Shown here one piece after another: positions 449 through 24,819 of a DNA stretch of 24,852 nucleotides. Each line of letters starts with the position of its first letter. Position 1 is the stretch's first letter. The notes beneath the pieces were generated by a model that saw only the letters and a list, made by a program, of their open reading frames with translations, made no database searches and had not been told where the DNA came from. Both the position numbers and the translations under genes were made by a program. The stretch spans positions 1 through 24,852 of the IMG/VR virus record IMGVR_UViG_3300017746_000140; one strand, written 5' to 3'. This stretch comes from a virus.

Positions 449-456
449 GATAAATA
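449..456 (+). promoter_or_regulatory. T4-like late promoter GATAAATA for the lysozyme operon
   Basis: GATAAATA lies just after the terminator and 8 nt before the lysozyme ATG. It matches the T4 late consensus TATAAATA at 7 of 8 positions. An AAGGAA sequence nearby is upstream of the motif and too far from the ATG to be its ribosome binding site. Confidence 0.6.
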
Positions 457-464
457 CACACATA

Positions 465-941
465 ATGTTTAAAAATTTATTTAAGGATACCAAATTGAAT
501 AGAGAAGCCGTATTTGAACAACTTAAAATTGATGAAGGAGTAGTATATGAACTCTATAACGACCATCTTGGGTACCCGACCTTTGGAGTCGGTCATCTTG
601 TCCTCGAAAGTGACAAGGAATTCGGAAAACCAATTGGAACTCCAGTTGACGAAGAACGTGTCAGGAACTGTTTTGAACGAGACCTTGATATTGCCATCTC
701 CGAGTGTGAACTTTTATACGAAGACGGGAGATTTGGAGACTTACCTGACGAGGTCCAGCAAATCTTGGTTAATATGATGTTCAACATGGGCAGAACAAGA
801 TTAAGTAAATTTAAAAAAATGCATAAAGCAATATTAGAAAGTGATTGGAAAACTGCCGCAGTTGAAGGTAGAGATTCACGTTGGCACAAACAAGTTACTA
901 ATAGAGCAGAAAGATTAATGAAAAGATTAGAGGAAGTATAA
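465..941 (+). CDS. T4-type lysozyme (glycoside hydrolase family 24)
   Basis: This 158-residue muramidase would cleave the MurNAc-GlcNAc bond of peptidoglycan at lysis, or during DNA entry if attached to the virion. The catalytic triad of T4 lysozyme (Glu11, Asp20, Thr26) is reproduced with identical spacing: Glu24 in IDEG, Asp33 in YNDHLGY and Thr39 in TFGVGHL. Downstream NMMFNMG and the C-terminal SRWHKQVTNRAERL match the T4 helical domain. The ATG at 465 is preferred because the longer frame would start at 417 inside the terminator. There is no signal peptide, as in T4 E lysozyme, so a holin would be needed for release. It is the first gene of a coupled operon, its stop overlapping the next start as TAATG. 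Confidence 0.93.
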   Translation: MFKNLFKDTKLNREAVFEQLKIDEGVVYELYNDHLGYPTFGVGHLVLESDKEFGKPIGTPVDEERVRNCFERDLDIAISECELLYEDGRFGDLPDEVQQILVNMMFNMGRTRLSKFKKMHKAILESDWKTAAVEGRDSRWHKQVTNRAERLMKRLEEV

Positions 942-1312
942 TGAAACTTAATGAAGTAATAGTTCAAGAGCAAAGCGAAGAAGAAATGAAAGCAGAATTA
1001 AAAAGGCTTCAACCTATTGCTGATAAGTTAGAATTTGCTAAAGAAGAAGCAAGAGATATTACTAAAGCAATCAAATATGAAAATACAACAAGTGAAATAA
1101 TGATTGGATTAGGTGGTCTTGCAGAAAAACTTGGCATTGATGAAAAAGAATTAGACTACTACGAAAATAGAGTACGTGAAGCAAGAAATCAATTAGAGTC
1201 TGCTGTTTATGAAATGGAAGAAGTTTTTGAAGACAAGTACAGAGATGTAGCAAATAAAATTGAAAATATTGAAATGGATTTAGAAGATTTAGAATATGAG
1301 AGAAGACAATGA
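941..1312 (+). CDS. Small acidic coiled-coil phage protein
   Basis: The 123-residue product is rich in Glu, Lys and Leu and almost lacks Gly and Pro. Residues ~12-55 and ~70-123 look like long amphipathic helices with heptad patterns, so a coiled coil is likely. It starts at the TAATG overlap with lysozyme, behind an AGAGGAAG ribosome binding site. It ends in an ATGA overlap with the next gene, so it is translated as part of the operon. The N-terminus MKLNEV resembles that of the next genes (MKLTDF, MRLFEV, MKLFDF). No enzymatic motif or family is recognised. A scaffold or core-like assembly role is a guess from composition and neighbours. Confidence 0.75.
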   Translation: MKLNEVIVQEQSEEEMKAELKRLQPIADKLEFAKEEARDITKAIKYENTTSEIMIGLGGLAEKLGIDEKELDYYENRVREARNQLESAVYEMEEVFEDKYRDVANKIENIEMDLEDLEYERRQ

Positions 1313-2121
1313 AACTAACTGACTTTAACGAATCATTTAGACATTATACTGTTAAGCATAAACGTACTGGTAAAAAGTACAAAGTAACTGCTATGCATGA
1401 TAAAAGTGCAATAGATAAAGCAAAGGCACAACATGGTGGAACAGCATCACGTTATACTGGCACTAGTAGTGATGATTTTGAAATAGTTGAAGGCAGAAAG
1501 AAACAAGTTAAAGCAAATAGTAAAAAACCTAAGTTAGTAAAACCTAACACAGGGCATGAAAGTCCTCATCCATACCAAGGCAAACTAGTAGGTGAGCAAA
1601 AGAATAAACCAAAAATGCCTAAACAAAATAATCCAGTAGCAAAGAATTCACGCAATATGAGTGGTGCTGGTGCCCATAAGTCAACAAAAGATTATGACAG
1701 AAAAAAAGAAAAACAAGATTTAAAAAAGTTTGACTTTGATGAAGGTACATACGTTGCACAAAAGTCTGAAGTTATAGATTCTATATTGAGACAATTAAAA
1801 GACAAAGCACAAGATGATGACAAATTAATGAGACATTTAGCAAAATTAGTAAACAAAGATGCTAAACCTAGATTTCACAACAAACCACAAGGAAGATTTG
1901 AATTAAGTCCTATTGAGGAAGAAATTAGAAACACTTGGGAAGTTCGTGAAATAATGACAGAAGAACAATTCGATGAAGCCGCAGGTGAAAAAGATGCCTG
2001 CTATCACAAAGTTAAATCCAGATACAAAGTTTGGCCCAGTGCTTACGCCAGTGGTGCATTAGTACAATGCAGAAAGAAAGGTGCGGCAAATTGGGGTAAC
2101 AAATCTAAGAAGAAAAAGTAA
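1309..2121 (+). CDS. Basic phage protein with a conserved Cys-containing C-terminal module
   Basis: The product has 270 residues and is Lys-rich. Residues ~11-62 form a small domain (YTVKHKRTGKKYKVTAM) that ends in the motif IVE-G, which fits the T4 prohead protease consensus (I/L)xE|(G/A). A low-complexity Lys/Pro/Asn linker follows. Residues ~226-268 form a compact module with ACYHKVKSRYKVWPSAYASG and a second Cys in VQCRKKGAANWG. I associate this module from memory with T4-like marine phage proteins of unknown function. The gene is joined by an ATGA overlap upstream and TAATG downstream. Nucleic-acid binding or packaging inside the head is possible given the basic charge, but this is inference. 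Confidence 0.75.
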   Translation: MKLTDFNESFRHYTVKHKRTGKKYKVTAMHDKSAIDKAKAQHGGTASRYTGTSSDDFEIVEGRKKQVKANSKKPKLVKPNTGHESPHPYQGKLVGEQKNKPKMPKQNNPVAKNSRNMSGAGAHKSTKDYDRKKEKQDLKKFDFDEGTYVAQKSEVIDSILRQLKDKAQDDDKLMRHLAKLVNKDAKPRFHNKPQGRFELSPIEEEIRNTWEVREIMTEEQFDEAAGEKDACYHKVKSRYKVWPSAYASGALVQCRKKGAANWGNKSKKKK

Positions 2122-3230
2122 TGCGTTTATTTGAAGTATATCAAGCAGAAGACAATGTCACTCAACTAGCAGAGCCTGGTGCATTCCGTAAGGAATGGAA
2201 AATACCACATGACGAAGTAGAGTCAGTTATTACTCAATGGATAAATCAAGAAGACCACATAGAGTTAAGCAATGGTATGCATATACTCAGTGGTGAGAAT
2301 CATGGATATGATGACAACGAAGCACTTGTTATTGGTCAGGACAATAAAATACTAGACCATGATTCAGACATAGTTGATTTAATGCAACAATTTACACCTA
2401 TTGAGATAGATCCAAGTATTGCAGAAGCAATAGTTGAAAAATGTTGGAAAGGTTATCAAAAGAAAGGTATGAAGACTATGTTTGGTAAACGTGTTCCTAA
2501 TTGTGTTAAGAAAGAAGCAGTTGAAGAAGCAGAAGAAATTACTTCAGGTGATAGAAACATTGCACTTACTTTACCAAGAGGTGAAATGAAAGTTCTTAAA
2601 GCAGAAGATGACGAATATGACAGAGGACTTTTAGTTAAACTACTAGATGATGGTGGTTATGATATGGCATACTGGTATGAAAAGCATGTGCCGTTTGAAG
2701 TAGAAGTTTTAGTAGATGGTAAATCAATTAAAAAAGATGCAAAAACTGTAACAATGAAATTTCATCCTGAACTTGATGGTATGATGGATAAAGTAAACAA
2801 ATTTAGAATGTATGACTTAGAAGCAGACATAAAAGATTTAAGAGACAAACTTGAGAAAGCAAAAGTAAATGAAACTTTAGAGTTTGCTCAAGACTTCAAT
2901 GCATTATTAAATGGTATTGAGGAAGACCTAGCAAATAGAAAGCAGGAATTGAACGATGACCTTAAGGCTTGGTTTGGTAAAGGTAAAAAAGGTGGAGCCG
3001 GTGGCGGTGGCTGGGACGCCTATAATACTAAAGGTGAACGTGTAGGTAAATGCGGAGATACTAAAAGTAAAGCAAAGCCTAAATGTTTATCTAAAAGCAA
3101 AGCCGCAAGTCTAAGAGCCAAAGGTGGTAAGAGTGCAATAGGTTCTGCAGTTAGTAAAAAACGTAGACAAGATCCTAATAAGAATAGAAAAGGTAAGGCT
3201 AAGAACGTTAGCAATACCAAAGGGAAGTAA
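2121..3230 (+). CDS. Phage protein with CWKGYQKKGMKTMFGK motif and basic C-terminal tail
   Basis: This 369-residue protein has a mixed N-terminal region (1-100). Next comes the motif CWKGYQKKGMKTMFGK with a second Cys in PNCVK (residues 108-129), then an acidic middle and a helical segment at ~230-285. After a Gly-rich hinge (GKKGGAGGGG), the tail from ~299 is very basic, with WDAYNTKGERVGKCGDTKSK and PKCLSKSKAASLRAKGG (Cys311, Cys322), ending in Lys/Arg/Asn repeats. The CWKGY and GKCGDTKSK elements recur in marine T4-like phage proteins as I remember them. The tail suggests contact with DNA or another polyanion. It begins at a TAATG overlap and is followed 2 nt later by the next gene. Function unknown. 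Confidence 0.75.
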   Translation: MRLFEVYQAEDNVTQLAEPGAFRKEWKIPHDEVESVITQWINQEDHIELSNGMHILSGENHGYDDNEALVIGQDNKILDHDSDIVDLMQQFTPIEIDPSIAEAIVEKCWKGYQKKGMKTMFGKRVPNCVKKEAVEEAEEITSGDRNIALTLPRGEMKVLKAEDDEYDRGLLVKLLDDGGYDMAYWYEKHVPFEVEVLVDGKSIKKDAKTVTMKFHPELDGMMDKVNKFRMYDLEADIKDLRDKLEKAKVNETLEFAQDFNALLNGIEEDLANRKQELNDDLKAWFGKGKKGGAGGGGWDAYNTKGERVGKCGDTKSKAKPKCLSKSKAASLRAKGGKSAIGSAVSKKRRQDPNKNRKGKAKNVSNTKGK

Positions 3231-3232
3231 TT

Positions 3233-3490: not shown

Positions 3491-3512
3491 TATATTATTA
3501 AAACTATTTTTA

Positions 3513-3723: not shown

Positions 3724-3725
3724 CA

Positions 3726-3956: not shown

Positions 3957-3968
3957 TTTGCTAAAAGT

Positions 3969-3976
3969 GATAAATA
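3969..3976 (+). promoter_or_regulatory. Late promoter motif GATAAATA, 6 nt before an ATG
   Basis: GATAAATA ends 6 nt before the ATG at 3983. No Shine-Dalgarno sequence lies between them or just upstream. If transcription starts as in T4 late promoters, the mRNA would begin at or next to the start codon. Confidence 0.6.
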
Positions 3977-3982
3977 GTTTAC

Positions 3983-5959
3983 ATGAAACTATTCGATTTT
4001 ACATCAGATAAAAACAAACTATCATCAAAGATAACAGAAAGCAAAACTGTAGTCCAAGAAGAATCTATCAACGAGTCTTTACAAGCATTAGCAAAACATG
4101 TTAAAGAAGGCAGTTCACTATGTGCAAGTCCTTTTAGACATGGAAGTAAAGCATACCTCGAAACATTCCAGTTAGCAAAAAAACTACGTGAAGCAGGTTC
4201 ACTTCCTGAATTAGATTGGGAAAGTGAAGAAATGCTTGCCACAGACGTAGGTGAAAGTGTAAAATTAAAGAATGGTGAAACAGTTTGGCTAGATATTCCT
4301 TACTTAAATGAAGATGAAGATGATAATGGCATGATTGGTGAGCCTGACAACTACTATGATGCTGAAGAAAGAAAACAAGCATACAACGATTTACAAGATG
4401 CATTACAAGGCAATTATATGGACGACTACATCAAAGATGGTGATTGTCCTGCATGTGGCGGTTCAGGTTATATGGACGGTGAAGAAACATTTATTAATGA
4501 TGATGGTGAAGAGGAAGAAAGTTCAGAGTGCGATGGCTTTGGCAACTACGGTTGTGACGAAGGCGAAATGACTTACGGCAGTGATGGACCAAGTTGGGTA
4601 GAAATTATTAAACATGACGAAAGTAATGCACAAAGACAAAAATCAAAAGACGAATATCCAGGTGATGAAGAAGTTATAAAACAAGTTGCTAGTTATATGA
4701 AAAGAATGGATGATCCTAGAATGGCATATCAACAAATGCAGGCAGACTTTCCACACATGGGTAGAGGACAACGAAGTGAAATATTAGGCAAAGCATCTAA
4801 AATGGCATTTGGTGAAGGTGTAATGGATATGGATTGGAAATCATCACGTGAACTAGATATGTCCTTACCATTGATTAAGTCATATAGTACACCAGAAGAA
4901 AATGCAGTAGGCAAAATTTTAGGTAAAGCATTAGATAAAAAAGATTGGGAAAAATACTCCCCACAAGAGTTATTTTCAGAATTAGAAAGTGTCAATCCAG
5001 CACTAGCAGATGACATTGCCAAAATTGCTAAAATTGTTTACAAAGTACAATTAGAAGAAAGAGCATACAAAGATGTTGGTGTTGCAGATGTTCATACAGA
5101 TGCTAGAGGTAAAGAATTCAAATTTGATAAAGACAGTAAAAAGTTTAAATCAATGGATGGCGAAGAAGCAGATCCTAAAACTAAAGTTGGTAAAGAGTTA
5201 ATGAGAAAACGTAGGAATGCAATGAAAAAATCAAGTCCTAGTTATAATAAAAAACCTGCACCTAAGAAAGGTGGATTTTTATCAAACCTCTTTAATGACG
5301 CAATTAGTGAAGGTGAAGAAAGAAGTATTATACGTGATGCCGTAGTACAACAACTAGTAGATACATTTGGTGAACAACCAGGTTTGTATGCAGACAATAA
5401 AGAAGACCTAGAAGCAAAAATGTATTCAGACCTAGAAGCAATGGATGTTGAAGATGTTGTTGATCCAAGAATGGAAGTAGGCGGACAACCAATAGGAGAC
5501 TTTGCCAGTGGTAGAGTGTTAGATGTTGTCAGTGCAAATGAAGTTATAGAAGACGCATTACAGCATGTAAACTTAAATGACATGGAAGATTTTGACGAAG
5601 GCAAATCCCCACACAAAAAAGGAACAAAGAAATATAAAAAACACATGGCGGCTATACATGCCGGTGAAGGTGTTACCAACGAAGCAGAATACAACGGTAA
5701 AGACGTAGAACTTAATAAACCAAAACGAGGCGGTAGTAAAAAATACTACGTTTATGTAAAAAATCCAAAAACAGATAGAGTCAAAAAAATATCTTTTGGA
5801 GATGTTACAGGTCTCAAGACAAAAGCAAATAATAAGAAAAGAGCAAAATCATTTGCGGCTAGACACAACTGTGAAAAGAAAAATGATAAAATGAAAGCAG
5901 GCTATTGGGCATGTCGTTTACCACGTTATGGTTTAGTTAAAGGTGGTAAATGGTGGTAG
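3983..5959 (+). CDS. Large multi-module phage protein with Cys motifs and basic C-terminal module
   Basis: This 658-residue protein has several modules. An N-terminal domain (~1-110) is followed by an acidic linker. A partial DnaJ-like zinc motif follows: CPACGGSG at 155-162, then a degenerate partner with Cys183 and Cys191. A helical part (~228-280) contains QADFPHMGRGQRSEILGKA. Residues ~405-435 are a basic linker, and ISEG at 441-444 fits a prohead protease site. SPHKKGTKKYKKHMAAIHAGE lies at ~542-562. The C-terminal module (~586-658) has KKYYVYVKNPKTDRVKKISF, Cys630, Cys644 and WACRLPRYG. I recall these last two elements from T4-like marine phage proteins. It may be an internal head or core component; function is not established. 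It has its own late promoter motif. Confidence 0.75.
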   Translation: MKLFDFTSDKNKLSSKITESKTVVQEESINESLQALAKHVKEGSSLCASPFRHGSKAYLETFQLAKKLREAGSLPELDWESEEMLATDVGESVKLKNGETVWLDIPYLNEDEDDNGMIGEPDNYYDAEERKQAYNDLQDALQGNYMDDYIKDGDCPACGGSGYMDGEETFINDDGEEEESSECDGFGNYGCDEGEMTYGSDGPSWVEIIKHDESNAQRQKSKDEYPGDEEVIKQVASYMKRMDDPRMAYQQMQADFPHMGRGQRSEILGKASKMAFGEGVMDMDWKSSRELDMSLPLIKSYSTPEENAVGKILGKALDKKDWEKYSPQELFSELESVNPALADDIAKIAKIVYKVQLEERAYKDVGVADVHTDARGKEFKFDKDSKKFKSMDGEEADPKTKVGKELMRKRRNAMKKSSPSYNKKPAPKKGGFLSNLFNDAISEGEERSIIRDAVVQQLVDTFGEQPGLYADNKEDLEAKMYSDLEAMDVEDVVDPRMEVGGQPIGDFASGRVLDVVSANEVIEDALQHVNLNDMEDFDEGKSPHKKGTKKYKKHMAAIHAGEGVTNEAEYNGKDVELNKPKRGGSKKYYVYVKNPKTDRVKKISFGDVTGLKTKANNKKRAKSFAARHNCEKKNDKMKAGYWACRLPRYGLVKGGKWW

Positions 5960-6232: not shown

Positions 6233-7809
6233 AAAAAATAGTAATATACCCAGGAAGATTTCAACCCATGCTACCTCATCATGAGATAGTGTACAAAAAA
6301 CTACAGGCTGAATTTCCAGGTGCAGGAGTTTATCTTGCTACATCAGATAAAGTAGAAGGCAGTAAAAGTCCTTTTAATTTTAAAGAAAAAGCAGAAATAA
6401 TAAGCCAAATGTATGACGTTCCTATGGATCATGTTATACTTGCACCGCAACCTTACCTTGTAGATTCATACAAAAAGAATTTTGATTTAGAAAATACTAT
6501 GGTTATTTTTGCTGTAGGAGAGAAAGATACTGACTGTTTTCCAATGAATAATATAGATGATAGTACTGGTTTAGACATGACTGTGCGAGGAGAACCTCGT
6601 CCAAAGTACTATCAGATGATAAATACATTAGAGCAACATCCTGCTTTACCAATGGAGGAAAGAGGATATATTCATATAGCACAAACTGTTAAAAGTGCAG
6701 ATGAAGTTGCTAGTGCAAGTGCTTTTAGAAAAGCATTCACAAGTGTTGAAGACATTGAAAAAAGAAAACAAGTATTCGAACAATACATGGGTACTTACAA
6801 TGAAAGAGTTTTTAATCTTTTCAATAACAAATTAATAGGTGATAAAATGAGCGAAATGATAGAAGTAATGAAATATTTGTCAGGTTTAACTGAAGCCGCT
6901 CCTGTTCAATACGGAGACTTAGATGTTGACACAGGTATGAAGGACAGTGAAGATGACGATTATGAAACAAAACCAGGCTATGAACAAGATAGTATGATTA
7001 ATCAATTAGGTAAAGTAATTGATAGTGAAGAGGCTGGTAAAGATGCTGAAGACATGAAGATTAAAAATTTTAAACCAGTAACTAGTGTAAAAACTGATGA
7101 TGGTAAAGAAATGGATATGACTCCTGGTCAAGCAAAAGCATTAAAGAAAATGATGGACATGCTACCAACTAATAGAGGTGGCGAAGAACAATCACCTAGA
7201 GAAAAGTTTTTAGATGCAATCCAGAGCTCCGAAGGATTAGCAAATATGTTAGATTTCGCAAAAAGCAAAAACCTAGTAGATGAAGATGTTGAAAAAGTTG
7301 AAATGCCAACTATAGATTTATCAGACATTAGAGATGACTATAGTGTTAATGTCGAAGAAGGCAGACTAAAAGATGTTATCATAGATGCTATGGAAATGGA
7401 CCCAGAAGAATTTAAAAAGGAATATGGCGATTCATTTGACCAAGAAGAATTAGTAAAACAATATGACTCAAATCATCCAGACTATGAAGACCAACCAGAA
7501 CCAGAAATGGAAAGTGCACCAGAAGGTGAACCAAGTCAAGAAGATGAAATGTATAACAAGTTAATCACTGCATACGAAAACAGTGAAGAAGACTTAGCAG
7601 AAGTTTTAGGCATGAGTATGGAAGACTTAGACACTGAACTAACTGACCTTTCATTAGAAATGGGTAAGCACATGGATGATGACAGAGATGAAATCATACA
7701 AAGATACATTGAAGATACTGTTGACAATGCAGATTACAAAGACCATGGTGAAATGGATTATGATATGGCTGACATGGAAGAAATGAAAAAATTAGCAGGA
7801 TTAGTGTAA
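6229..7809 (+). CDS. Nucleotidyltransferase-like domain fused to a long acidic tail with LAGL motif
   Basis: Residues 1-~205 resemble the cytidylyltransferase/NMN-adenylyltransferase fold. The first strand and P-loop equivalent is IVIYPGRFQPMLPHH, and VIFAVGEKDTD and VASASAFRKAF (near 159-170) match the GEKD and SS(T/S)xxR regions. The catalytic HxGH motif is altered: the first His is Leu15 and the Gly is His17, so activity is doubtful. I recall the same GRFQPMLPHH form in cyanophage proteins annotated as cytidylyltransferases. Residues ~210-526 are strongly acidic and helical. SGLTEAAP at 218-224 fits the (L/I)xE|A prohead protease consensus, and the protein ends KKLAGLV. The gene is coupled to both neighbours by ATGA and TAATG overlaps. 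A structural or scaffold-like role is plausible. Confidence 0.8.
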   Translation: MKKIVIYPGRFQPMLPHHEIVYKKLQAEFPGAGVYLATSDKVEGSKSPFNFKEKAEIISQMYDVPMDHVILAPQPYLVDSYKKNFDLENTMVIFAVGEKDTDCFPMNNIDDSTGLDMTVRGEPRPKYYQMINTLEQHPALPMEERGYIHIAQTVKSADEVASASAFRKAFTSVEDIEKRKQVFEQYMGTYNERVFNLFNNKLIGDKMSEMIEVMKYLSGLTEAAPVQYGDLDVDTGMKDSEDDDYETKPGYEQDSMINQLGKVIDSEEAGKDAEDMKIKNFKPVTSVKTDDGKEMDMTPGQAKALKKMMDMLPTNRGGEEQSPREKFLDAIQSSEGLANMLDFAKSKNLVDEDVEKVEMPTIDLSDIRDDYSVNVEEGRLKDVIIDAMEMDPEEFKKEYGDSFDQEELVKQYDSNHPDYEDQPEPEMESAPEGEPSQEDEMYNKLITAYENSEEDLAEVLGMSMEDLDTELTDLSLEMGKHMDDDRDEIIQRYIEDTVDNADYKDHGEMDYDMADMEEMKKLAGLV

Positions 7810-8435: not shown

Positions 8436-8463
8436 AATAAATACTGTTATAATTAAATAACAG
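8436..8463 (+). promoter_or_regulatory. Late promoter motif AATAAATA plus leader hairpin
   Basis: AATAAATA (8436-8443) lies 29 nt before the ATG at 8473. It is followed at once by a perfect 7-bp hairpin, CTGTTAT (8444-8450) with ATAACAG (8457-8463) around a 6-nt loop. The AGGA ribosome binding site (8462-8465) overlaps the 3' edge of the hairpin, so folding could affect initiation. Confidence 0.5.
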
Positions 8464-11877: not shown

Positions 11878-12093
11878 CTAATATTTATCAGGAACTAAAT
11901 GGGTAGGTACAAATTTTACAACACCTTCCTCTTCGATAACAACATACAAGTCTCCCATCTGACATTTGAGATGTTTTCCTGTAATTTCTTCGTCGAATTC
12001 TATTGTGCCGTTACTTCTTAATCTAAAGTGGTAATCGTGAAATCTAACTGAGCCTGGATCTGTTTCTAGATGAAACTCTCTGCGTTTGAACAT
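11878..12093 (-). CDS. Small hypothetical phage protein (71 residues)
   Basis: The product is short, acidic and probably beta-rich (VRFHDYHFRLRSNGTIEFDEE, LYVVIEEEGVVKFV). A clear AAGGAC ribosome binding site lies 5 nt before the ATG, and a late promoter motif lies 27 nt upstream. Its last codons (Asp-Lys-Tyr-stop) contain the late promoter octamer of the next gene. No family recognised. Confidence 0.7.
   Translation of the reverse strand: MFKRREFHLETDPGSVRFHDYHFRLRSNGTIEFDEEITGKHLKCQMGDLYVVIEEEGVVKFVPTHLVPDKY
11882..11889 (-). promoter_or_regulatory. Late promoter motif GATAAATA inside the end of the preceding gene
   Basis: Read on the minus strand, GATAAATA ends exactly 5 nt before the ATG at 11876 and overlaps the final codons of the 71-residue gene. 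There is no Shine-Dalgarno sequence before the membrane-protein start. Confidence 0.6.
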
Positions 12094-12120: not shown

Positions 12121-12128
12121 TATTTATT
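12121..12128 (-). promoter_or_regulatory. Late promoter motif AATAAATA with leader
   Basis: AATAAATA on the minus strand lies 27 nt upstream of the ATG at 12093. The intervening leader holds the AAGGAC ribosome binding site. It overlaps the stop codon of the 91-residue gene. Confidence 0.5.
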
Positions 12129-12407: not shown

Positions 12408-12415
12408 TATTTATG
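12408..12415 (-). promoter_or_regulatory. Late promoter motif CATAAATA
   Basis: CATAAATA on the minus strand ends 5 nt before the ATG at 12402 and includes the stop codon of the upstream gene. The spacer and start (ATATT-ATG) are the same as those before the PAAR gene at 24806. Confidence 0.5.
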
Positions 12416-13096: not shown

Positions 13097-13100
13097 AGGA

Positions 13101-13176
13101 TGGAGCTCGGGATAAGATTTGAACTTACGACCTGAGGTTTACAAAACCCCTGCTCTACCAACTGAGCTACCCGAGC
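13101..13176 (-). tRNA. tRNA-Thr (UGU)
   Basis: The minus strand forms acceptor GCTCGGG/CCCGAGC, D arm GCTC/GAGC, anticodon stem GGGGT/ACCTC with loop TTTGTAA (anticodon TGT), T arm GTAAG/CTTAT with loop TTCAAAT, discriminator T and an encoded CCA at 13101-13103. It is the first tRNA of the pair, and its 5' end lies 4 nt after a long inverted repeat. Confidence 0.95.
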
Positions 13177-15542: not shown

Positions 15543-15710
15543 TTATTTTTGGTCGGGCTTTCTGGAAATGAATTGGTTTAGTTTTTCTGCTTCTTTGATT
15601 ACATCTTCGGTCGATGGCATAAGGTCTGGCTTATTAGCCTGAGCCTGTAATATCAACCTTGCTTCTTGAATAAGTTCTAACCTTATTTCATATGGTGTTT
15701 TGTTAGACAA
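15543..15710 (-). CDS. Small phage protein (55 residues) with TTG start
   Basis: The product reads (M)SNKTPYEIRLELIQEAR... and ends in KEAEKLNQFISRKPDQK. I recall the TPYEIRLELL...IIKEAEKLN pattern from small T4-like marine phage proteins. The only sensible start is TTG at 15708-15710, 9 nt after a strong AGGAGA site (15720-15725), and a late promoter octamer lies 29 nt upstream. The downstream half of the frame fills an otherwise empty 280-nt gap. Function unknown; it is helical and charged. Confidence 0.75.
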   Translation of the reverse strand: MSNKTPYEIRLELIQEARLILQAQANKPDLMPSTEDVIKEAEKLNQFISRKPDQK

Positions 15711-15739: not shown

Positions 15740-15747
15740 TATTTATC
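15740..15747 (-). promoter_or_regulatory. Late promoter motif GATAAATA for the TTG-start gene
   Basis: GATAAATA on the minus strand shares its G with the TAG stop of the upstream gene and lies 29 nt before the TTG start. The leader contains AGGAGA. Confidence 0.6.
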
Positions 15748-17173: not shown

Positions 17174-17179
17174 TTATTA

Positions 17180-17187
17180 TATTTATT
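17180..17187 (-). promoter_or_regulatory. Late promoter motif AATAAATA
   Basis: AATAAATA on the minus strand overlaps the stop of the upstream paralogue and ends 6 nt before the ATG at 17173. The surrounding sequence is very AT-rich, so confidence is lower than for the GATAAATA copies. Confidence 0.45.
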
Positions 17188-17764
17188 TAAAAAGTTTATC
17201 ACTTTTATACAAGTTATAAACTTCATCAATATCTTCCCTAATTGCGGCACTAATAACTAATCTATTCCAACCTGTAAAATTAAATACTCTGTGCCAATGC
17301 ATAGTATTATAAATTGTTGCTTTGCCTGGTGTCATTCTGTGTTCTGCTAAAACATCTAGATTTTCATCTTCCCACCAAGTAGGTTCTTTGTCATTATTTT
17401 CAATATCTTCGTTTAGTCCTCTTGTTGCCCATTGAACATAACTGCGTTCAAAGTCTCCTGAGACCATAAAATTTAATGCACATTTACGACCAAATGTTCC
17501 TGGTCCTTCACTATGCCAAGGACTAGAGGAATTACACATTGTATTTAAAAGAGTTAAACTTCCAACGGGTATTGTTAGTTTACTTTCTAAATACGTTTTT
17601 ACTTCTGCATACCAATTTTCAGGTACAACTCTATACTGAAAACTATTTCCGCCCAAACCTAATCCTGAAGGCGACATATAATCAGCAGGGTGCTGAACAT
17701 ATGGTTTATCTTCCACATCAAATGGTAATTCTAATTGCGGTATGTCAAAGTAATATGGGACCAT
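17183..17764 (-). CDS. Putative HxE-type 2OG-Fe oxygenase-like protein, paralogue C (shorter)
   Basis: The 193-residue product is the first and shortest of the three copies. It keeps VPYYFDIPQLELPFDV, PENWYAEV, PWHSEGPGTF (His84, Glu86), RKCALNFMVSGD, IYNTMHWHRVFNF (His158), NRLVISAAIREDID (Arg168) and the ending DKLFK. It lacks ~35-45 residues between the N-terminal motif and the core. The putative metal ligands are kept, so it is not simply decayed. The ATG at 17764 is 5 nt after an AATAAATA motif and has no Shine-Dalgarno sequence. Confidence 0.75.
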   Translation of the reverse strand: MVPYYFDIPQLELPFDVEDKPYVQHPADYMSPSGLGLGGNSFQYRVVPENWYAEVKTYLESKLTIPVGSLTLLNTMCNSSSPWHSEGPGTFGRKCALNFMVSGDFERSYVQWATRGLNEDIENNDKEPTWWEDENLDVLAEHRMTPGKATIYNTMHWHRVFNFTGWNRLVISAAIREDIDEVYNLYKSDKLFK

Positions 17765-17769
17765 ACTAC

Positions 17770-17777
17770 TATTTATT
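17770..17777 (-). promoter_or_regulatory. Late promoter motif AATAAATA
   Basis: AATAAATA on the minus strand ends exactly 5 nt before the ATG at 17764, in the 18-nt gap after the 60-residue membrane protein gene. Confidence 0.5.
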
Positions 17778-18320: not shown

Positions 18321-18328
18321 TATTTATA
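18321..18328 (-). promoter_or_regulatory. Exact T4 late promoter consensus TATAAATA
   Basis: TATAAATA on the minus strand lies downstream of the radical SAM gene and upstream of the micro-ORF cluster, 29 nt before the first ATG. It is the only exact match to the T4 consensus among the motifs listed here. Confidence 0.6.
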
Positions 18329-18363: not shown

Positions 18364-19416
18364 TTATAACGTCTTTGTTATGCTGATGTCATTTAGGTTG
18401 TTACAAAATTCAAAAGGACATGAATAATGTTCTATTGGCAATTCTAATTCTTTAATTTGTGTAATGTTTCCAAAACTTTTTGCTCCACACCAACTGCTAA
18501 TTATCTCTCCATGCATATCTATATTAAGACCTTCTGATCCTAAATGGCAATTCATTCCGCCAAACTTATTAAGTCCTTCATTTATAATTTGATGACTTTG
18601 AACATACTTTACAGTTCCATCATCATACTTAAATTCAGTTGACCAATATTTAGGATCACCCTTTACATGGGTAGGTGTGTTATCTTCCATAGGAGTAGGA
18701 TTAGGTTTTACTCCTGGACGTTGCATAATTTCTATTTCTTCAGGTGTATAGTTGTACCATGTTTCTTGTGTATCGTAATTGTTATTGTCTCCAAGTAATT
18801 TTTTATACATTGTTTTAACAGCAATACTTACATCAAATACACTTTGTCTACCATTGTTATCATTAAAAGAATCTCTTAATTCTTCGCCAAAGTCATATAG
18901 TTCGTTTACTTGACCACTTATGCCGGCTATACTTATATCTACCGTTACGTGACCTCTTAGGACGTCTACAACCTCTTTAAAATGTTGTTTATCCATAGTT
19001 AAAGGATGATATGTTAATACAACACCTTGTAAGAAGTTTCTTGCTTCTTCCCACCAACGTACAGTTCTACTACCATTCGAATATACAGTTACATTTGCTT
19101 TATAGTCATATAAACTTTGTAATATTTCTTCAAAGTCGGGTATAGTTGTTACTTCTCCGCCTATAAGTTCCCAATGCATTGCACGAACTTTTTCTTCTCC
19201 ATTATGAATGTAAGTATGTGCTTTATAATAATCGCAAACTTTTTGAATTGTTTTTAGATAAACATCTTTTGACATCCAAGGATTTGTGCCGTCATGTAAT
19301 ATTGTTGGGCAGTAGTCACAAGAGAAATTACAGGTGTTACCCATACTCCATTGAATGTTTACTGGATTATTTGGTGCGTGATAATGTGGTCCTACAACCG
19401 ATATGAGTCTACTCAT
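18364..19416 (-). CDS. Radical SAM protein with C-terminal auxiliary Cys cluster
   Basis: The 350-residue product has the CxxxCxxC cluster motif at Cys29, Cys33 and Cys36 (CNFSCDYC), preceded by NIQWSMGNT, and a GGEVTT motif (~86-91) equivalent to the SAM-binding GGE. VTVYSNGS and VVLTYHP fit successive barrel strands. The C-terminal region has Cys290, Cys310, Cys333 and Cys338 with a GNI turn, resembling a SPASM or twitch domain that binds an auxiliary Fe-S cluster, as in peptide-modifying enzymes. It would start a radical reaction from S-adenosylmethionine. The substrate is unknown; no obvious precursor peptide is adjacent, although micro-ORFs lie just downstream. It has its own GATAAATA motif 5 nt before the ATG. 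Confidence 0.9.
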   Translation of the reverse strand: MSRLISVVGPHYHAPNNPVNIQWSMGNTCNFSCDYCPTILHDGTNPWMSKDVYLKTIQKVCDYYKAHTYIHNGEEKVRAMHWELIGGEVTTIPDFEEILQSLYDYKANVTVYSNGSRTVRWWEEARNFLQGVVLTYHPLTMDKQHFKEVVDVLRGHVTVDISIAGISGQVNELYDFGEELRDSFNDNNGRQSVFDVSIAVKTMYKKLLGDNNNYDTQETWYNYTPEEIEIMQRPGVKPNPTPMEDNTPTHVKGDPKYWSTEFKYDDGTVKYVQSHQIINEGLNKFGGMNCHLGSEGLNIDMHGEIISSWCGAKSFGNITQIKELELPIEHYSCPFEFCNNLNDISITKTL

Positions 19417-19421: not shown

Positions 19422-19429
19422 TATTTATC
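19422..19429 (-). promoter_or_regulatory. Late promoter motif GATAAATA for the radical SAM gene
   Basis: GATAAATA on the minus strand lies in the 18-nt gap between the hydrolase stop and the radical SAM ATG at 19416, ending exactly 5 nt before it. No Shine-Dalgarno sequence lies close to the ATG. Confidence 0.62.
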
Positions 19430-19434
19430 GTATA

Positions 19435-20292: not shown

Positions 20293-20894
20293 TAACTTAA
20301 CTCTTTAAATTTTTCAAAATACATTCTCCAAACTACTTGGGGAACGGTATAAAATTCTGTTATGCCTTCTGGCTCTGCAATGCCTTTACGTTTCCACCAG
20401 TTCCTAGCAACATAGTCTGTAATTGTATTACTGCTTCTAACATAATTATCAGCATAGGCTTTATTGGCTAAAGTGGTTCCAAAGGTTGCTTTAAAGTTAG
20501 GTTGTTTACTTGCCCAATCACAATTGAAGTAAAGTAGTCCATCAAACTCAGGCATTTCACCTCTGCCGTATCTTCTACTTTTAGTCATTGGTATATCTGC
20601 ATTAGGTATCCTACAAAGTCTAGTCCAAATTCTATAGTAACCTTCTTTGTATTCTGGCATGTATTGTGTTCCTGCTACTGCATAAATCTTTTGTGTAGGG
20701 ATATGTATCATGCAATGATATTGTATTTCATCTACTTTCATTGCTTCAGGCGAGGAATTATTTTCGTATCCTAAATCTTTTGCTACTTGACAAAACTCTT
20801 CCAAAGCAGGAAGCCATTTATCGTTGTATTCAATACAACCTATTTCGCCATTGAAAAATGTTCTTAAGATTTCTTTATTGCTGATATCAACCAT
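20292..20894 (-). CDS. Unknown protein in the lipid-gene operon
   Basis: The ~200-residue product contains IYAVAGTQYMPEYKEGYYRIWTRL (a possible paired-strand core), SRRYGRGEMPEFDGLLYFN, ARNWWKRKGI and a final GITEFYTVPQVVWRMYF. The strand pattern loosely recalls an acyltransferase of the GNAT type, but no acetyl-CoA motif is convincing, so no function is assigned. The ATG at 20894 is used (AGG nearby) rather than 20918, reducing the overlap with the desaturase to 31 nt. It is coupled to the hydrolase by a TAATG overlap and may act on the same pathway. Confidence 0.7.
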   Translation of the reverse strand: MVDISNKEILRTFFNGEIGCIEYNDKWLPALEEFCQVAKDLGYENNSSPEAMKVDEIQYHCMIHIPTQKIYAVAGTQYMPEYKEGYYRIWTRLCRIPNADIPMTKSRRYGRGEMPEFDGLLYFNCDWASKQPNFKATFGTTLANKAYADNYVRSSNTITDYVARNWWKRKGIAEPEGITEFYTVPQVVWRMYFEKFKELS

Positions 20895-21631
20895 CTGCCT
20901 ACATCCATTTCGTACCACTTAGTATTAAAGTTTAACCTTCTTGGTCTATAATGATGATTGTTATGTAAACTTTCACCCCAAGTAAATAATGCCAACCAAG
21001 GATTATTTGTACTATTATTTTTCATTGGAGTTGTTTCGTACGTCATACCTTTTATAGGAGTATGACCAAGTACATTAACAATACCACTTATAATAACACT
21101 TAAAAAACTTGCATTTAAACTTGCAAGTATATATCTTCCATCAAACCACCAAACTGTCAATAATGATATAATTAACAAGTTTAATATGATTAACACATAA
21201 TAATTTTTATGGCACCACAATGCAAACGGATCTAATTGCCTTCTAATTTTAAAAATTTCTTTTCTGGCAAATTCATGATTCTCTTTGTGGAATATCCAAC
21301 CAAACAATGCATAAAATATGCCTTTAGTTGGAGTATGTACATCTTTGTTTGTATCTGTGTGTGCGTGATGACTTCTGTTATGTATAAGACTCCAAGTCAC
21401 CGGAGAGCCTTGAGCTCCTTGACAACCTAAATAAAGTAAAAACTTTCTTATTGGTTCCCATGTTTCGAATGAACTATGGCTATGTAGTCTATGAAAGCCT
21501 ACACTTATGCCGTATCCACTATAAAGTATTGTAAAAAATATGGTAGCACATAATAACTGCGTACTACCATTCGCTATACTCCATAGCAAAGATATGAATG
21601 CTACAGGAAGAAATAGTAAATAAAATAGCAT
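20864..21631 (-). CDS. Membrane fatty acid desaturase (first of two in sequence order)
   Basis: The 255-residue protein has the three His boxes of the membrane-bound desaturase family: HRLHSH at 47-52, HNRSHH at 84-89 and HNNHH at 223-227, which hold the di-iron site. Hydrophobic segments at ~1-20, ~27-45, ~143-163 and ~168-188 flank them as in Delta-9-type acyl-lipid or acyl-CoA desaturases. It would insert a double bond in host acyl chains using O2 and an electron donor; position specificity cannot be read. It starts at a TAATG overlap with the second desaturase and shares its operon with a hydrolase. Confidence 0.93.
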   Translation of the reverse strand: MLFYLLFLPVAFISLLWSIANGSTQLLCATIFFTILYSGYGISVGFHRLHSHSSFETWEPIRKFLLYLGCQGAQGSPVTWSLIHNRSHHAHTDTNKDVHTPTKGIFYALFGWIFHKENHEFARKEIFKIRRQLDPFALWCHKNYYVLIILNLLIISLLTVWWFDGRYILASLNASFLSVIISGIVNVLGHTPIKGMTYETTPMKNNSTNNPWLALFTWGESLHNNHHYRPRRLNFNTKWYEMDVGRWLISAIKKS

Positions 21632-22455
21632 TATTTCTTTAACCCCTTAATAACCCAACTACTGATATCTATTTCACTCCAGTGCTGACTATTATTTGTT
21701 GCATTCCAATACCTGTGATGATTGTTATGTAACATTTCACCCCAAGTTAAAATTGCACCTATTCTGTTATTGACACTATTATCTTTTGTCTCAAAATTTC
21801 TATAGCCAAACCAACTGTAATGGCTAAGTGCAGTAACAGTACTTGTATTCATTAATGTTGCCCATATACCAAATACAATTCCGTATAGTGCAACTTGCCA
21901 ACCAAATAGTAACCATGCTAAACCAACTGTTCCATAATTTATTACTAAATGATTATCGTTTAAAAATGCGTAATATTTGTCATTTACAAAATTACGTCTT
22001 ATGTATTTTACTAAAACACGTCTATCAATGTGTTCATCAAAGTATTTTTGTTCTCTGTGCCAAGTTAGAAATGCATGAAAGAAACCTTGTAAAGGACTAT
22101 GTGGGTCACCTTCTTGGTCTGCGTTTTTATGATGTCCATTGGTGTGTATCATTACCCAAGGAAAAATTGCACCGTATCCATTAAACACACTACATGTTGT
22201 CATAATACGTTCTTTCCATTTAGGCATTTCAAATGCGGCATGACCCCAATATCTATGTAAGCCAATTGCCATACCAACACAACCAAATAGGAAGTATGTG
22301 ATAAGTCCTAACCATAGATAATTCCAGTCACCGTTATATGCCATTATTGGTATTATACTCCAACCCACTATTTGAATTGGTAGAGTGTATAACCAAAAGT
22401 TTGCTTTTGCTTTATCTTTAAAAAAGTTTGTTAATGAAGTCAAAATTCGTTTCAT
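21631..22455 (-). CDS. Membrane fatty acid desaturase (second of two in sequence order)
   Basis: The 274-residue protein has HRYWGH at 67-72, HTNGHH at 104-109 and HNNHH at 243-247, plus four hydrophobic stretches (~20-40, ~45-65, ~170-190, ~190-212). It is clearly related to its neighbour but diverged, sharing LTWGE-x-LHNNHH and the WxExDxxxWxIxxxKK ending. This suggests an old duplication or two separate acquisitions. The start at 22455 overlaps the upstream gene by 38 nt, unusually long for this window, and has no evident ribosome binding site, so the true start could be downstream. Likely modifies host membrane lipids. Confidence 0.92.
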   Translation of the reverse strand: MKRILTSLTNFFKDKAKANFWLYTLPIQIVGWSIIPIMAYNGDWNYLWLGLITYFLFGCVGMAIGLHRYWGHAAFEMPKWKERIMTTCSVFNGYGAIFPWVMIHTNGHHKNADQEGDPHSPLQGFFHAFLTWHREQKYFDEHIDRRVLVKYIRRNFVNDKYYAFLNDNHLVINYGTVGLAWLLFGWQVALYGIVFGIWATLMNTSTVTALSHYSWFGYRNFETKDNSVNNRIGAILTWGEMLHNNHHRYWNATNNSQHWSEIDISSWVIKGLKK

Positions 22456-23374
22456 GATGTTTTTGTAACATTTCCTTTAGTCTAGTGTCTACTTTTACTG
22501 TATATTGTAAACTAGCATACTTTAAGGTCAAAGGCCCAAATGGTGCTAATCTTTGTCTTAGTGTATTATCGTATTTATCATGTCCGAAGTAACTTTTAAG
22601 CATTTCAATGCCTATTAACTTTTGAGTAGTGGGTTTTATGTCAAAACCTGCTTGTTTTATAGTTCTGACTTCATATTGATAATATCTATGAGGTGCATTA
22701 TCAACAAAGTCTTGCGTTTGTGATTTTAAAACTTCACCATAACTTTGTGTAAACATCCAACTGCTGTACATGTCTACATAATGTTCTTGGAAGTTTGTGT
22801 ATTCTTTACCGCTAACTTCAGCGGCATGTTCTTGAGTTTGGTGTGGGACAAATGGCATAAACCCATTGTTTTTTGTTCTTGTCCAATCACTGTTACTAAC
22901 ATGCATCATAAAGCCTGGATAAACAATACAACAATCTGGTAGTAAATCAAAAAACTTTCCTGCTATAGTCATTTGTGGTTGTGTAGTAGGAAATTTTTCT
23001 CCATAGTATTCAAATTCATCTCCGTCAAATAATGCTGGAACATCTATAGGAAACAACTCATATTTTATTCCTCTCGCTTCACAATATGCAATGCTACAAT
23101 CGTTTTCACGTTTACTTAAATCGTTACTTAAAACAGGAATGGCGGCAACAAAATCTATGCCTGCCATTCTAAATCCTTGCATAGCAATTTGTGAATACAT
23201 GTGTTGTACACTATAATCACACCACACATATAAATCTTTGCTGAATTTTTGTCTAATCTTTTTGGCTGTTTCAATTGCTTCAATAAATGGAGAACGAGGA
23301 ATTACATCTGGTGCTTGAACAAACATATCAACATTTTGCCCATTTCCAAATTCACTAAATGTTACACCTCTCAT
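22418..23374 (-). CDS. PP-loop/asparagine-synthase-like protein lacking the SGGxDS motif
   Basis: The 318-residue protein follows the layout of ATP-pyrophosphatase domains. LYVWCDYSVQHMYSQIAMQGFR occupies the place of the SGGxDS loop and its helix. FVAAIPVLSNDLSKRENDCSIAYCEARGIKYELFPIDV follows, as in the strand-helix that carries a nearby cysteine region, and PQMTIAGKFFDLLPDCCIVYPG matches the later conserved strand. The loop reads CDYSVQ rather than SGGxDS, so nucleotide binding is doubtful. The remainder is alpha-helical with many aromatic residues. It starts in an ATGA overlap with the subtilase-like gene and overlaps the desaturase. The assignment rests on pattern only. Confidence 0.5.
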   Translation of the reverse strand: MRGVTFSEFGNGQNVDMFVQAPDVIPRSPFIEAIETAKKIRQKFSKDLYVWCDYSVQHMYSQIAMQGFRMAGIDFVAAIPVLSNDLSKRENDCSIAYCEARGIKYELFPIDVPALFDGDEFEYYGEKFPTTQPQMTIAGKFFDLLPDCCIVYPGFMMHVSNSDWTRTKNNGFMPFVPHQTQEHAAEVSGKEYTNFQEHYVDMYSSWMFTQSYGEVLKSQTQDFVDNAPHRYYQYEVRTIKQAGFDIKPTTQKLIGIEMLKSYFGHDKYDNTLRQRLAPFGPLTLKYASLQYTVKVDTRLKEMLQKHHETNFDFINKLF

Positions 23375-24513
23375 TCGAACTCCCTGTATAAATGTAAATC
23401 ATTTAGATTGTAAGTTCTTATAAAAGGGTCGCCTGGTTCTAATAATTTTACAGGTCTTGCCATTGGTACCCAATACTCTCTCATTGTAAATGGAGGAGCA
23501 TCATATGGTCTATTAAAATATTTGTGTTTAACATCTTCGTATGTTAATTTATTATCTGCATCACAACTAATCATATGATATTCAAATAATTGTCCATTTA
23601 TATCTGCTTGAAATCTATGAAACATATTTGTTTTGAATTTAAAAGTTCCATACAACCACCCACTATTTGTATCAAATGTAATTCCACGTGGCATGTCTAA
23701 TCCCATGTCTACATATCTTGCATCTACAAAATCTTCTAATTGTACACCACCATACAAAACACTAACTTGGTCACCTGGTCTAACAGGTATTAAGTGTTCT
23801 CCTGCACAATATCTTAAATTGGATACAGGATTAAATTCATAGTATTTAGGCTTGTTAGACGGCGTCTGTGCAAGTCTAAGAGGCCAAGGAGCATTACGGA
23901 CACTACTATCACTGTAATATCCTAGTTCATAATTAAGTTCTAATTGTTTATGTACCATCTTTGTACAAATGTTATGGACTGCTTTATTGCTGTTTGGTTC
24001 ACTAGGATCAATTACATCATATATATCTATCCAGTTTTGATAGTATCCATCATGTTTATTTCCGCCTACTCTAACAACACCATCTACTGCAACTGGACTT
24101 ATATCTATAACAGGCAAATCCTTGTTCCCACCAGCACAAACTACCATATGCCCTGCTTTTAAAAGTTGTTCTATACGATAATCTACTATATAATTACGGT
24201 CCATTTGCCAACTAAAACACAATATCTTGGGCTCTTGTACCGCTAAAAGGTCTAATTTTTCTATGAGTGGTGCAAGTGTATCTTCGGCTGAAACAGTTGT
24301 ATATGACGTTGTATGACGTTCATAGACGTCGATATACGCACAATCTTCATTAGATTGCATACTTAATACCGAATAACTGCTAGTTATAGCGGAAATAACA
24401 TTATATTCGCTTATTTCACAGTCTATGAGATATGTGTTATGTTTAAAAGATTGTATTATTTCGACAGGAAATGAAGATACGTCGATTGAATCATTAAATT
24501 GAATTATAAGCAT
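23371..24513 (-). CDS. Subtilase-like protein without a clear triad, fused to an Ig-like domain
   Basis: Residues ~55-165 resemble a subtilisin-family core: KILCFSWQ, a helix, then GHMVVCAGGNKD (the oxyanion AAGN region) and AVDGVVRVGG (equivalent to the V-x-VGA strand). I cannot identify the catalytic Asp, His or GTS-Ser motifs, so it is probably not an active protease. Residues ~225-330 hold LIPVRPGDQVSVLYGG and MPRGITFDTNSGWLYGTF, the signature of the He_PIG Ig-like fold (LPxGLxxDxxTGxIxGTP). A virion or tail-associated binding protein is plausible. It is the first gene of the overlapping operon down to the hydrolase. Confidence 0.6.
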   Translation of the reverse strand: MLIIQFNDSIDVSSFPVEIIQSFKHNTYLIDCEISEYNVISAITSSYSVLSMQSNEDCAYIDVYERHTTSYTTVSAEDTLAPLIEKLDLLAVQEPKILCFSWQMDRNYIVDYRIEQLLKAGHMVVCAGGNKDLPVIDISPVAVDGVVRVGGNKHDGYYQNWIDIYDVIDPSEPNSNKAVHNICTKMVHKQLELNYELGYYSDSSVRNAPWPLRLAQTPSNKPKYYEFNPVSNLRYCAGEHLIPVRPGDQVSVLYGGVQLEDFVDARYVDMGLDMPRGITFDTNSGWLYGTFKFKTNMFHRFQADINGQLFEYHMISCDADNKLTYEDVKHKYFNRPYDAPPFTMREYWVPMARPVKLLEPGDPFIRTYNLNDLHLYREFE

Positions 24514-24519
24514 AGTTAA

Positions 24520-24527
24520 TACTTATC
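24520..24527 (-). promoter_or_regulatory. Variant late promoter GATAAGTA
   Basis: GATAAGTA on the minus strand, one base off GATAAATA, ends 6 nt before the ATG at 24513, in the 29-nt gap after the PAAR gene. It is positioned like the other no-Shine-Dalgarno genes. Confidence 0.35.
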
Positions 24528-24542
24528 TGTGGAAGGGGTAGT

Positions 24543-24806
24543 TTAACCGGCAAATACGGTACTAGCACCATTGGCGGCATGACCACAACTTGCGGCATCA
24601 CCTGCTCTGGTAACTGATTTGCCTGTTGCAAATACTGTAGTACTTGTACCAACTATTTTAGGTGCGGCATGAGGAGCCTTACCATGTCCTGCTACTGCAT
24701 CACCTATTAAAGATACTCTATTACCTTCAGCATAAACTGTGGATGCACCTGGGCCTAGAATAGCCGCTCCGGCTTGATTTGCTGATGTTCTACTTATTGC
24801 TGGCAT
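24543..24806 (-). CDS. PAAR-repeat spike-tip protein
   Basis: The 87-residue product is a PAAR-type protein: MPAISRTSANQAG, GASTVYAEGNRVSLIGD, GHGKAPHAAP, TVFATGKSVTRAGD and CGHAANGASTVFAG form repeated strand-turn units. His and Cys residues sit in the tip-binding positions (GHGxxPH and CGH). In T4 the equivalent protein (gp5.4) caps the central spike and pierces the outer membrane. The ATG at 24806 is preferred over the TTG at 24821 because the late promoter octamer GATAAATA occupies that position. It is the first gene after the palindromic terminator. Confidence 0.88.
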   Translation of the reverse strand: MPAISRTSANQAGAAILGPGASTVYAEGNRVSLIGDAVAGHGKAPHAAPKIVGTSTTVFATGKSVTRAGDAASCGHAANGASTVFAG

Positions 24807-24811
24807 AATAT

Positions 24812-24819
24812 TATTTATC
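24812..24819 (-). promoter_or_regulatory. Late promoter motif GATAAATA for the PAAR gene
   Basis: GATAAATA on the minus strand ends exactly 5 nt before the PAAR ATG at 24806 and follows the terminator palindrome by 3 nt. No Shine-Dalgarno sequence is present. Confidence 0.65.

Follow-up and report, generated by a model that had tools for sequence, protein, structure and literature searches.

Octamers and their spacing from start codons

The virus record IMGVR_UViG_3300017746_000140, 24,852 bases in length with a G+C content of 34% and analyzed here as a whole (the window), contains octamers of the type of the phage T4 late promoter, many of them a few nucleotides (nt) upstream of an ATG codon. 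An initial annotation of the window had suggested that such octamers are held at two fixed distances from start codons and that many late mRNAs may consequently be leaderless. We consider it very probable that many T4-type late promoters are positioned here such that the first transcribed base (+1) is that of the start codon, or lies within about 3 nt of it, and that many late mRNAs are leaderless. On the sequence evidence, the earlier reading thus appears sound with three modifications, which concern the width of the long-distance class, the lysozyme leader, and the phylogenetic range. The octamers that had been named are all present, at the positions and distances given, and are listed below together with three additional core sequences.

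449..456, + strand: octamer GATAAATA; lysozyme gene 465-941, whose ATG follows after 8 nt; leader predicted at about 3 nt
3969..3976, + strand: octamer GATAAATA; gene 3983-5959, whose ATG follows after 6 nt
11882..11889, - strand: octamer GATAAATA; gene 11370-11876 (DUF6580), whose ATG follows after 5 nt
12408..12415, - strand: octamer CATAAATA; gene 12127-12402, whose ATG follows after 5 nt
17180..17187, - strand: octamer AATAAATA; gene 16460-17173, whose ATG follows after 6 nt
17770..17777, - strand: octamer AATAAATA; gene 17183-17764, whose ATG follows after 5 nt
19422..19429, - strand: octamer GATAAATA; radical SAM-like gene 18364-19416 (Pfam score 29.1, just under the cut-off of 29.5), whose ATG follows after 5 nt
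24812..24819, - strand: octamer GATAAATA; PAAR gene 24543-24806, whose ATG follows after 5 nt
24520..24527, - strand: variant octamer GATAAGTA, 6 nt before the ATG (24513) of gene 23371-24513
8436..8443, + strand: long-class octamer AATAAATA; gene 8473-9225, whose ATG follows after 29 nt; Shine-Dalgarno sequence present
12121..12128, - strand: long-class octamer AATAAATA; gene 11878-12093, whose ATG follows after 27 nt; Shine-Dalgarno sequence present
15740..15747, - strand: long-class octamer GATAAATA, 29 nt before the TTG of open reading frame (ORF) 15543-15710; AGGAG present
18321..18328, - strand: octamer TATAAATA, no convincing gene at 29 nt
6618-6625 (+ strand), 13654-13661 (- strand) and 22572-22579 (- strand): cores inside ORFs, 3 of the 15 cores, absent from the earlier list

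The clear Shine-Dalgarno sequences described at + 8436, - 12121 and - 15740 were found at all three places. The entry at - 18321 had been counted as a long-class gene as well, but the ATG 29 nt after it opens an ORF of fewer than 40 codons, so that no gene supports it.

The number of octamers is in itself no evidence, as the ATAAATA core occurs 15 times in the window and 14.5 times (standard deviation 3.7) is expected from shuffled sequence. The annotation had anticipated this for AT-rich DNA, and enrichment of the octamer as such was rejected. A total at chance level is what one would expect if composition were the whole explanation, with the A/T-rich spacers of packed genes and the TAA stops within ATAAATA creating the spacing. 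Yet exactly 5 nt separate five of the 15 cores from the ATG of a reading frame 87-350 codons long, with two more cores at 6 nt and one at 8 nt. When all window cores were rotated, the observed five at 5 nt and eight at 5-8 nt were each reached in 0 of 24,851 rotations, the maximum at 5 nt being 3; 7-mers of the same composition gave 0.09 at 5 nt and 0.57 at 5-8 nt.

The same spacing recurs in loci of IMG/VR relatives, pooled as distinct genes after duplicates had been dropped by their first 12 residues, with 20 permuted 7-mers of ATAAATA composition, many containing TAA, as controls. In this set, 121 distinct genes have their ATG at 5 nt (control mean 2.5, maximum 6) and 27 at 6 nt (control 4.2), followed by 8 at 7 nt and 14 at 8 nt; the peak at 5-6 nt on which the annotation had staked its reading is therefore present across relatives. 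Only 6 genes lie at 9-14 nt, versus about 22 per control 7-mer (18 when scaled to an equal number of sites), and the control 7-mers show no such gap. From 15 nt on there is a broad long class, extending over about 15-45 nt. Of the two fixed distances, accordingly, the 5-nt peak stood, while the class at 27-29 nt merged into this broad range; a fixed distance for the long class was rejected, given a spread of about 15-45 nt in relatives and of 24-29 nt at the homologues of a single gene. Among one-mismatch variants of the core, only GTAAATA clearly stands out (six at 5 nt and five at 6 nt, background 0.29), and even this best variant has no comparable 5-nt peak; the octamer is thus of T4 type with a strict core. 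These control counts already contradict an origin in chance or composition, which we regard as hardly credible, and the non-random spacing claimed for the window is confirmed there and in its relatives.

Predicted transcription start, Shine-Dalgarno sequences, and start codons

A pyrimidine-purine (YR) step is typical of transcription start sites. The lineage of the window comprises six contigs (the window, G001, G003, G005, G007 and G008), all of them partial except G003. In its long class, the YR step is commonest at octamer+5/+6 (59% of 70 promoters, versus 26% in controls) and reaches at most 41% at ten other offsets; in twelve other genomes it occurs at octamer+5/+6 in 41% of 222 promoters, versus 24% in controls. 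The octamer of T4 late promoters spans -13 to -6 (PMC1524935). This position and the long-class initiator signal together suggest that +1 lies at octamer+6 in this lineage, as in T4, so that a 5-nt gap would place +1 on the A of ATG, as had been proposed. A pyrimidine at -1 was found in 44 of 44 genes at 5 nt, compared with 348 of 729 octamer-free genes, and in 118 of the 121 genes of the pooled set. Strictly leaderless mRNAs had been predicted for the lysozyme, PAAR and radical SAM genes; the prediction would hold for the genes at 5 nt, but not for lysozyme, whose 8-nt distance implies a leader of about 3 nt.

For the Shine-Dalgarno test, AGGA, GGAG or GAGG was sought in the usual Shine-Dalgarno interval before the most upstream ATG of 851 ORFs of at least 100 amino acids (aa) in the six lineage genomes. 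Such a sequence precedes 1 of 66 short-class genes (5-8 nt) and 47 of 55 long-class genes (12-45 nt; Fisher p 6e-24), as well as 243 of the 730 remaining ORFs; the lack of Shine-Dalgarno sequences in the short class, noted earlier in the window, thus extends, with one exception, to the lineage. In the published annotation of HTVC008M, a phage of SAR11, the corresponding counts are 2 of 12 (short class), 9 of 11 (12-60 nt) and 89 of 175 (others). Together with the nearly empty interval at 9-14 nt, this split implies that a resulting mRNA would be either leaderless or long enough at its 5' end for a ribosome-binding site, with very few intermediates. The start codons at 5 nt in the pooled relatives are 121 ATG, 0 GTG and 0 TTG, which is weak evidence because 190 of 198 HTVC008M genes start with ATG in any case (7 GTG, 1 TTG).

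Could the octamer be an A/T-rich ribosome-binding element rather than a promoter? It sits at the usual position of a Shine-Dalgarno sequence in genes that have none, and the short-class spacer has a preference of its own for G at -2 (59 of 121, versus 16% at the same place in the long class). However, the same octamer, with its first base biased to G alike in the two classes (60% and 58%), is also found 15-45 nt before genes that do have a Shine-Dalgarno sequence, where it would be useless to the ribosome. Moreover, the initiator step follows it at T4's distance, distances of 9-14 nt are avoided, and a terminator tail reaches the octamer in some cases. We therefore judge a translation signal very unlikely.

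It is somewhat less improbable, but still quite unlikely, that the promoters are real and that the true starts lie downstream, or that transcription begins further upstream, such that the leaders are normal. Starts derived from ORFs are uncertain, and a lysozyme homologue (L028, 91% identical) has an aligned ATG 31 nt after the octamer. On the other hand, all nine starts at 5 nt in HTVC008M (9 of 9) come from an independent annotation, the N-termini of homologues agree for the radical SAM-like gene and for gene 11370-11876, the pyrimidine at -1 in 44 of 44 genes and the lack of GTG and TTG would be unexpected if these ATGs were not starts, and terminator tails stop just before the octamer in several cases.

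Under the leaderless reading, we infer the 5' ends of transcripts, their translation, their late timing in this phage and recognition by gp55 as follows. A gp55-like sigma factor would read the octamers as T4-type late promoters, with +1, six bases after the octamer, in many cases being the A of the start codon or lying within about 3 nt of it. A short-class mRNA would then start with AUG and, as it has no Shine-Dalgarno sequence, would have to use leaderless initiation. The other late promoters, 15-45 nt upstream, would produce ordinary leaders, most with a Shine-Dalgarno sequence, and one promoter type would thereby serve two modes of late translation in one phage. A short-class promoter would also fit into short intergenic gaps: the median gap from the previous ORF on the same strand is 18 nt in the short class and 61 nt in the long class.

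The space upstream was examined for terminators, and two hairpins in the window lie upstream of short-class octamers.

401..430, + strand: intrinsic-terminator-like hairpin with a T run, upstream of the lysozyme promoter; its palindromic stem, 401-426, also scored on the - strand
24825..24845, - strand: terminator-like hairpin; T-rich tail continuing into the PAAR octamer; same layout in G001

As the tail of the second hairpin meets the octamer, no room is left for a leader, and in several short-class cases the T tail ends almost at the octamer. In the 90 nt upstream, a terminator-like hairpin was found for 9 of 74 genes of the short class, 6 of 67 of the long class and 19 of 1229 without an octamer (short class versus octamer-free, Fisher p 1e-5); the corresponding HTVC008M counts are 2 of 12, 0 of 4 and 3 of 221. 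Hairpins thus mark promoters of both classes. Matches to sigma-70-like promoters were at chance level only.

Conservation was tallied at homologous starts. The radical SAM-like gene keeps 5 nt at 2 of 2 homologue starts (89% and 57% identity), and gene 11370-11876 at 3 of 3 (100%, which is the same phage, 80% and 58%); at 57-58% identity, the flanks of both differ while the spacing persists. Gene 3983-5959 has 6 nt at 4 of 5 homologue starts (100%, again the same phage, 82%, 81% and 44%), the fifth having no octamer. Gene 23371-24513 has the same GATAAGTA at 6 nt in G001 (93%), and TATAAATA at 6 nt in a homologue of 46% identity. Other genes gave the following counts: 5 nt at 2 of 6 (one the same phage), 6 nt at 1 and none at 3 for gene 12127-12402; 6 nt at 2 of 8, 5 nt at 2 and none at 4, counting homologues and paralogues, for gene 16460-17173; and, counted likewise, 5 nt at 2 of 9, 6 nt at 2 and none at 5 for gene 17183-17764, where the three relatives of 60-93% identity are all at 5 or 6 nt. 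PAAR homologues start at 5 nt (2 of 4), 6 nt (1 of 4) and 17 nt (1 of 4). The six homologue starts of the long-class gene 8473-9225 are at 24, 25, 27, 29 and 29 nt (one of the last two the same phage), with one lacking an octamer. Among 47 distinct homologue starts of lysozyme, the octamer is at 7-9 nt in 10 and at 29-34 nt in 6. Orthologues can also switch class: the PAAR gene of L018 is the one at 17 nt, with AAGGA, and a homologue of ORF 15543-15710 in L133 is at 5 nt.

Several observations weigh against leaderless late transcription. No octamer lies within 37 nt in 31 of the 47 lysozyme homologue starts, and homologues of several other genes lack one too. Because the contigs that were pooled are related, their counts are only partly independent, and related genes of the window and G001 were not thinned in the Shine-Dalgarno and initiator counts. 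Apart from the 2 of 12 short-class genes of HTVC008M, a Shine-Dalgarno sequence was scored in 2 of 3 of those in genome G004. The preference for G at -2 is not explained by a promoter, and the ATG-only starts count for little. The presumed transcription factors are also incompletely represented: 13 HTVC008M core genes, including gp55 and gp45, were sought in the window fragment and none was found; among the six lineage contigs, gp55 was matched in G003 only, the others being partial; and HTVC008M queries detected neither gp45 nor gp33 in G003. On the supporting side, the G003 gp55 homologue is 28% identical to HTVC008M gp55 over 142 residues (E 4e-12) and 45% identical to a PA5oct frame over 278.

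Distribution among phages and comparison with known systems

The two classes were tallied per genome as octamers 5-8 nt (short) and 15-40 nt (long) before ATG.

Window lineage, short/long: window 8/3, G001 13/16, G003 27/35, G005 10/7, G007 12/9, G008 14/12
SAR11 phage: HTVC008M 12/7
Short class scarce: Mosig 7/23, RHph_I1_18 4/16, P-HM1 3/16, Melnitz 3/18, P-SSM4 3/23, G004 3/24
Short class near-absent: C48C1 1/13, S-PM2 1/25, Syn9 0/20, T4 0/30, PA5oct 1/23

From Mosig to G004, the short class is still 3.6-6.4 times the control expectation, in small numbers; for Immuto (106 cores), the observed 2/5 falls short of the 4.1 and 11.8 expected from its controls. Octamer-N5-ATG patterns, compared with a reversed-pattern control, numbered 8 versus 4 in PA5oct, 5 versus 2 in Atu_ph07 and 2 versus 0 in CBB, and there were none in Phosso or XaC1. 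T4-type late promoters in the predicted leaderless arrangement are thus frequent in two lineages distant from each other, rare in several more, and near-absent in T4, Syn9 and S-PM2. We rejected the idea that the short class characterizes the entire T4 superfamily or its jumbo phages, as T4, Syn9, S-PM2 and PA5oct have 0-1 short-class genes. The suggestion that many late mRNAs are leaderless would accordingly apply to the window's lineage and HTVC008M, but not to T4-like phages in general.

HTVC008M has 45 octamers, and for nine of them an independently annotated ATG follows after exactly 5 nt. These nine ATGs belong to a 2OG oxygenase, CsgF, a tail tube cap, a baseplate wedge, a baseplate wedge initiator, a hypothetical protein, a regulator, a DNA end protector and a tape measure; the starts are at 6280, 7562, 19456, 31132, 49760, 75559 and 142360 (+ strand) and at 18916 and 16007 (- strand). 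The octamers of its sheath, portal and protease genes are 61, 30 and 19 nt from the respective starts, which would correspond to leaders of about 56, 25 and 14 nt. Three further octamers are at 7 or 8 nt, one before a head-tail adaptor; 6 of the 12 short-class genes have virion-type names and 6 do not. The annotation of this phage includes gp55, gp45 and gp33 homologues. The short class of G003 includes the terminase gene terL (31% to HTVC008M terL). Six further proteins were chosen from the 27 of its short class: four match virion families (a virion structural protein, a head-tail adaptor, a tail tube and, weakly, a tape measure), whereas the other two gave no match to a functionally characterized family.

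The T4 late promoter (TATAAATA; gp55 with gp33 and gp45) is like that of the window's lineage in its octamer core, its strictness and an initiator signal six bases past the octamer. Unlike T4, the lineage has mostly G as the first octamer base, and its start codon coincides with the predicted +1. Among 65 T4 cores, none has an ATG (ORF of at least 50 codons) at 5-8 nt, and 30 such ATGs lie at 15-40 nt; without the ORF filter there is one bare pattern match, and 15 of 19 long-class genes have a Shine-Dalgarno sequence. The published late promoter of cyanomyoviruses such as S-PM2 and Syn9, NATAAATA (PMC2984593), is the same motif as that of the lineage, but the short class numbers 0 among 38 cores in Syn9 and 1 among 59 in S-PM2. 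An ATAAATA late motif has been predicted before structural genes of the jumbo phages CBB and GAP32 (PMC5259590); CBB shares the motif, but has only the 2 octamer-N5-ATG matches in 378 kb. PA5oct, the nearest to G003, G007 and G008 in the terL tree, has 1 short-class gene and 23 long.

In bacteria, leaderless ("TA-led") genes are recognized by a promoter box situated some 10-12 bp upstream of their start codons (PMC3160421), and leaderless starts of S. meliloti are AUG throughout (PMC3616915). Short-class genes have a box at that distance, lack a Shine-Dalgarno sequence, and start with AUG, the last being a weak test. The box of TA-led genes is a -10 element of sigma-70 type, whereas that of the window's lineage would be a phage late promoter. 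The lambda cI mRNA begins with AUG and is leaderless (PMC3160421), and a paper on phage AR9, whose own leaders are 26-491 nt, remarks that phage mRNAs are "often leaderless" (PMC5312081). Lambda cI is a single gene, whereas in the window's lineage a large part of a T4-type late program would be leaderless. Among the matches listed in the literature searched, no title or abstract described leaderless late mRNAs of T4-type phages, nor was a T4-type late program largely without ribosome-binding sites found.

As to causes, HTVC008M and Mosig share the host strain HTCC1062 but have 12 short and 7 long, and 7 short and 23 long, respectively; the host alone is therefore not supported. A phage ribosomal protein bS21 is encoded in 8 of 15 records (HTVC008M, Mosig, Melnitz, G001, G003, G004, G007 and PA5oct) and in none of T4, Syn9 and S-PM2, and its occurrence parallels the short class only loosely; it is a weak candidate, because Melnitz, G004 and PA5oct carry it and have few short-class genes. 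A phage IF3 was found in none of the 15 records. It is an unlikely, more far-reaching idea that the lineages of the window and HTVC008M independently built a leaderless late program and also reshape ribosomes, for example through phage bS21, so that leaderless late mRNAs outcompete Shine-Dalgarno-led host mRNAs.

For pelagimyophages, the usual method is reported to have failed to predict late promoters (PMC7029224), and for Melnitz 15 were assigned (PMC9004378). If our reading is correct, it would provide a simple promoter rule for such phages, those of SAR11 included, would correct their start codons and operon maps, and would make leaderless initiation testable in an isolate, HTVC008M on SAR11. 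Two classes in each genome, with orthologues that switch between them, would be a natural experiment on when leaderless translation suffices.

The source phage and other genes of the window

Judging from its relatives, the phage is a member of the T4 superfamily, and kinship suggests that it and its IMG/VR relatives are probably marine. Two contigs, 3300017727_004667 (L019) and 3300017783_005237 (L020), of 25 and 31 kb, encode lysozyme and 658-aa proteins 100% identical to those of the window and probably represent the same phage in other samples. The nearest distinct large contig is 3300020421_002402 (G001, 110 kb). When G001 is set aside, 25 of 26 window ORFs of at least 120 aa match compared genomes, 17 of the 25 best in G003, an IMG/VR contig of 340 kb. 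The window's 193-aa protein and its radical SAM-like protein had no match in phage records.

The terminase of G003 is nearest to those of PA5oct-like phages, followed by Phosso and Atu_ph07 (among the best 30 of 2510 phage-record matches). In the terL tree, G003, G007 and G008 cluster with support of 99/99, with PA5oct adjoining them (88/93, not fully supported) and CBB in the same clade. HTVC008M is far from this cluster and joins Melnitz and Mosig (89/88) within the cyanomyovirus clade (100/100). The window, G001 and G005 yielded no terL, and the placement of these three therefore rests on shared genes.

A peptide deformylase (10835-11386, - strand) and an Asp/Asn beta-hydroxylase-like protein (9206-9922, - strand) are near neighbors in the window. 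The pelagimyophage core set names peptide deformylase, Asp/Asn beta-hydroxylase and bS21 (PMC7029224); the first two in the window and bS21 in G001 may hint at a host of SAR11 type. Between them, 9901-10845 (- strand) encodes a clear glycosyl hydrolase family 6 protein (Pfam E 2e-53), which looks like unusual phage cargo. Three adjoining genes at 15747-17764 (- strand) resemble paralogues, with a common PYYF start and cross-matches, and two of them carry short-class octamers; Pfam gave no match for 15747-16463 and 17183-17764, the two of the three that were scanned. Two adjoining proteins encoded at 20864-22455 (- strand) are fatty-acid-desaturase-like, one above the Pfam cut-off and the other without a Pfam match, its likeness being judged by eye. 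A tRNA-Glu gene lies beside a tRNA-Thr gene at 13022-13176 (- strand).

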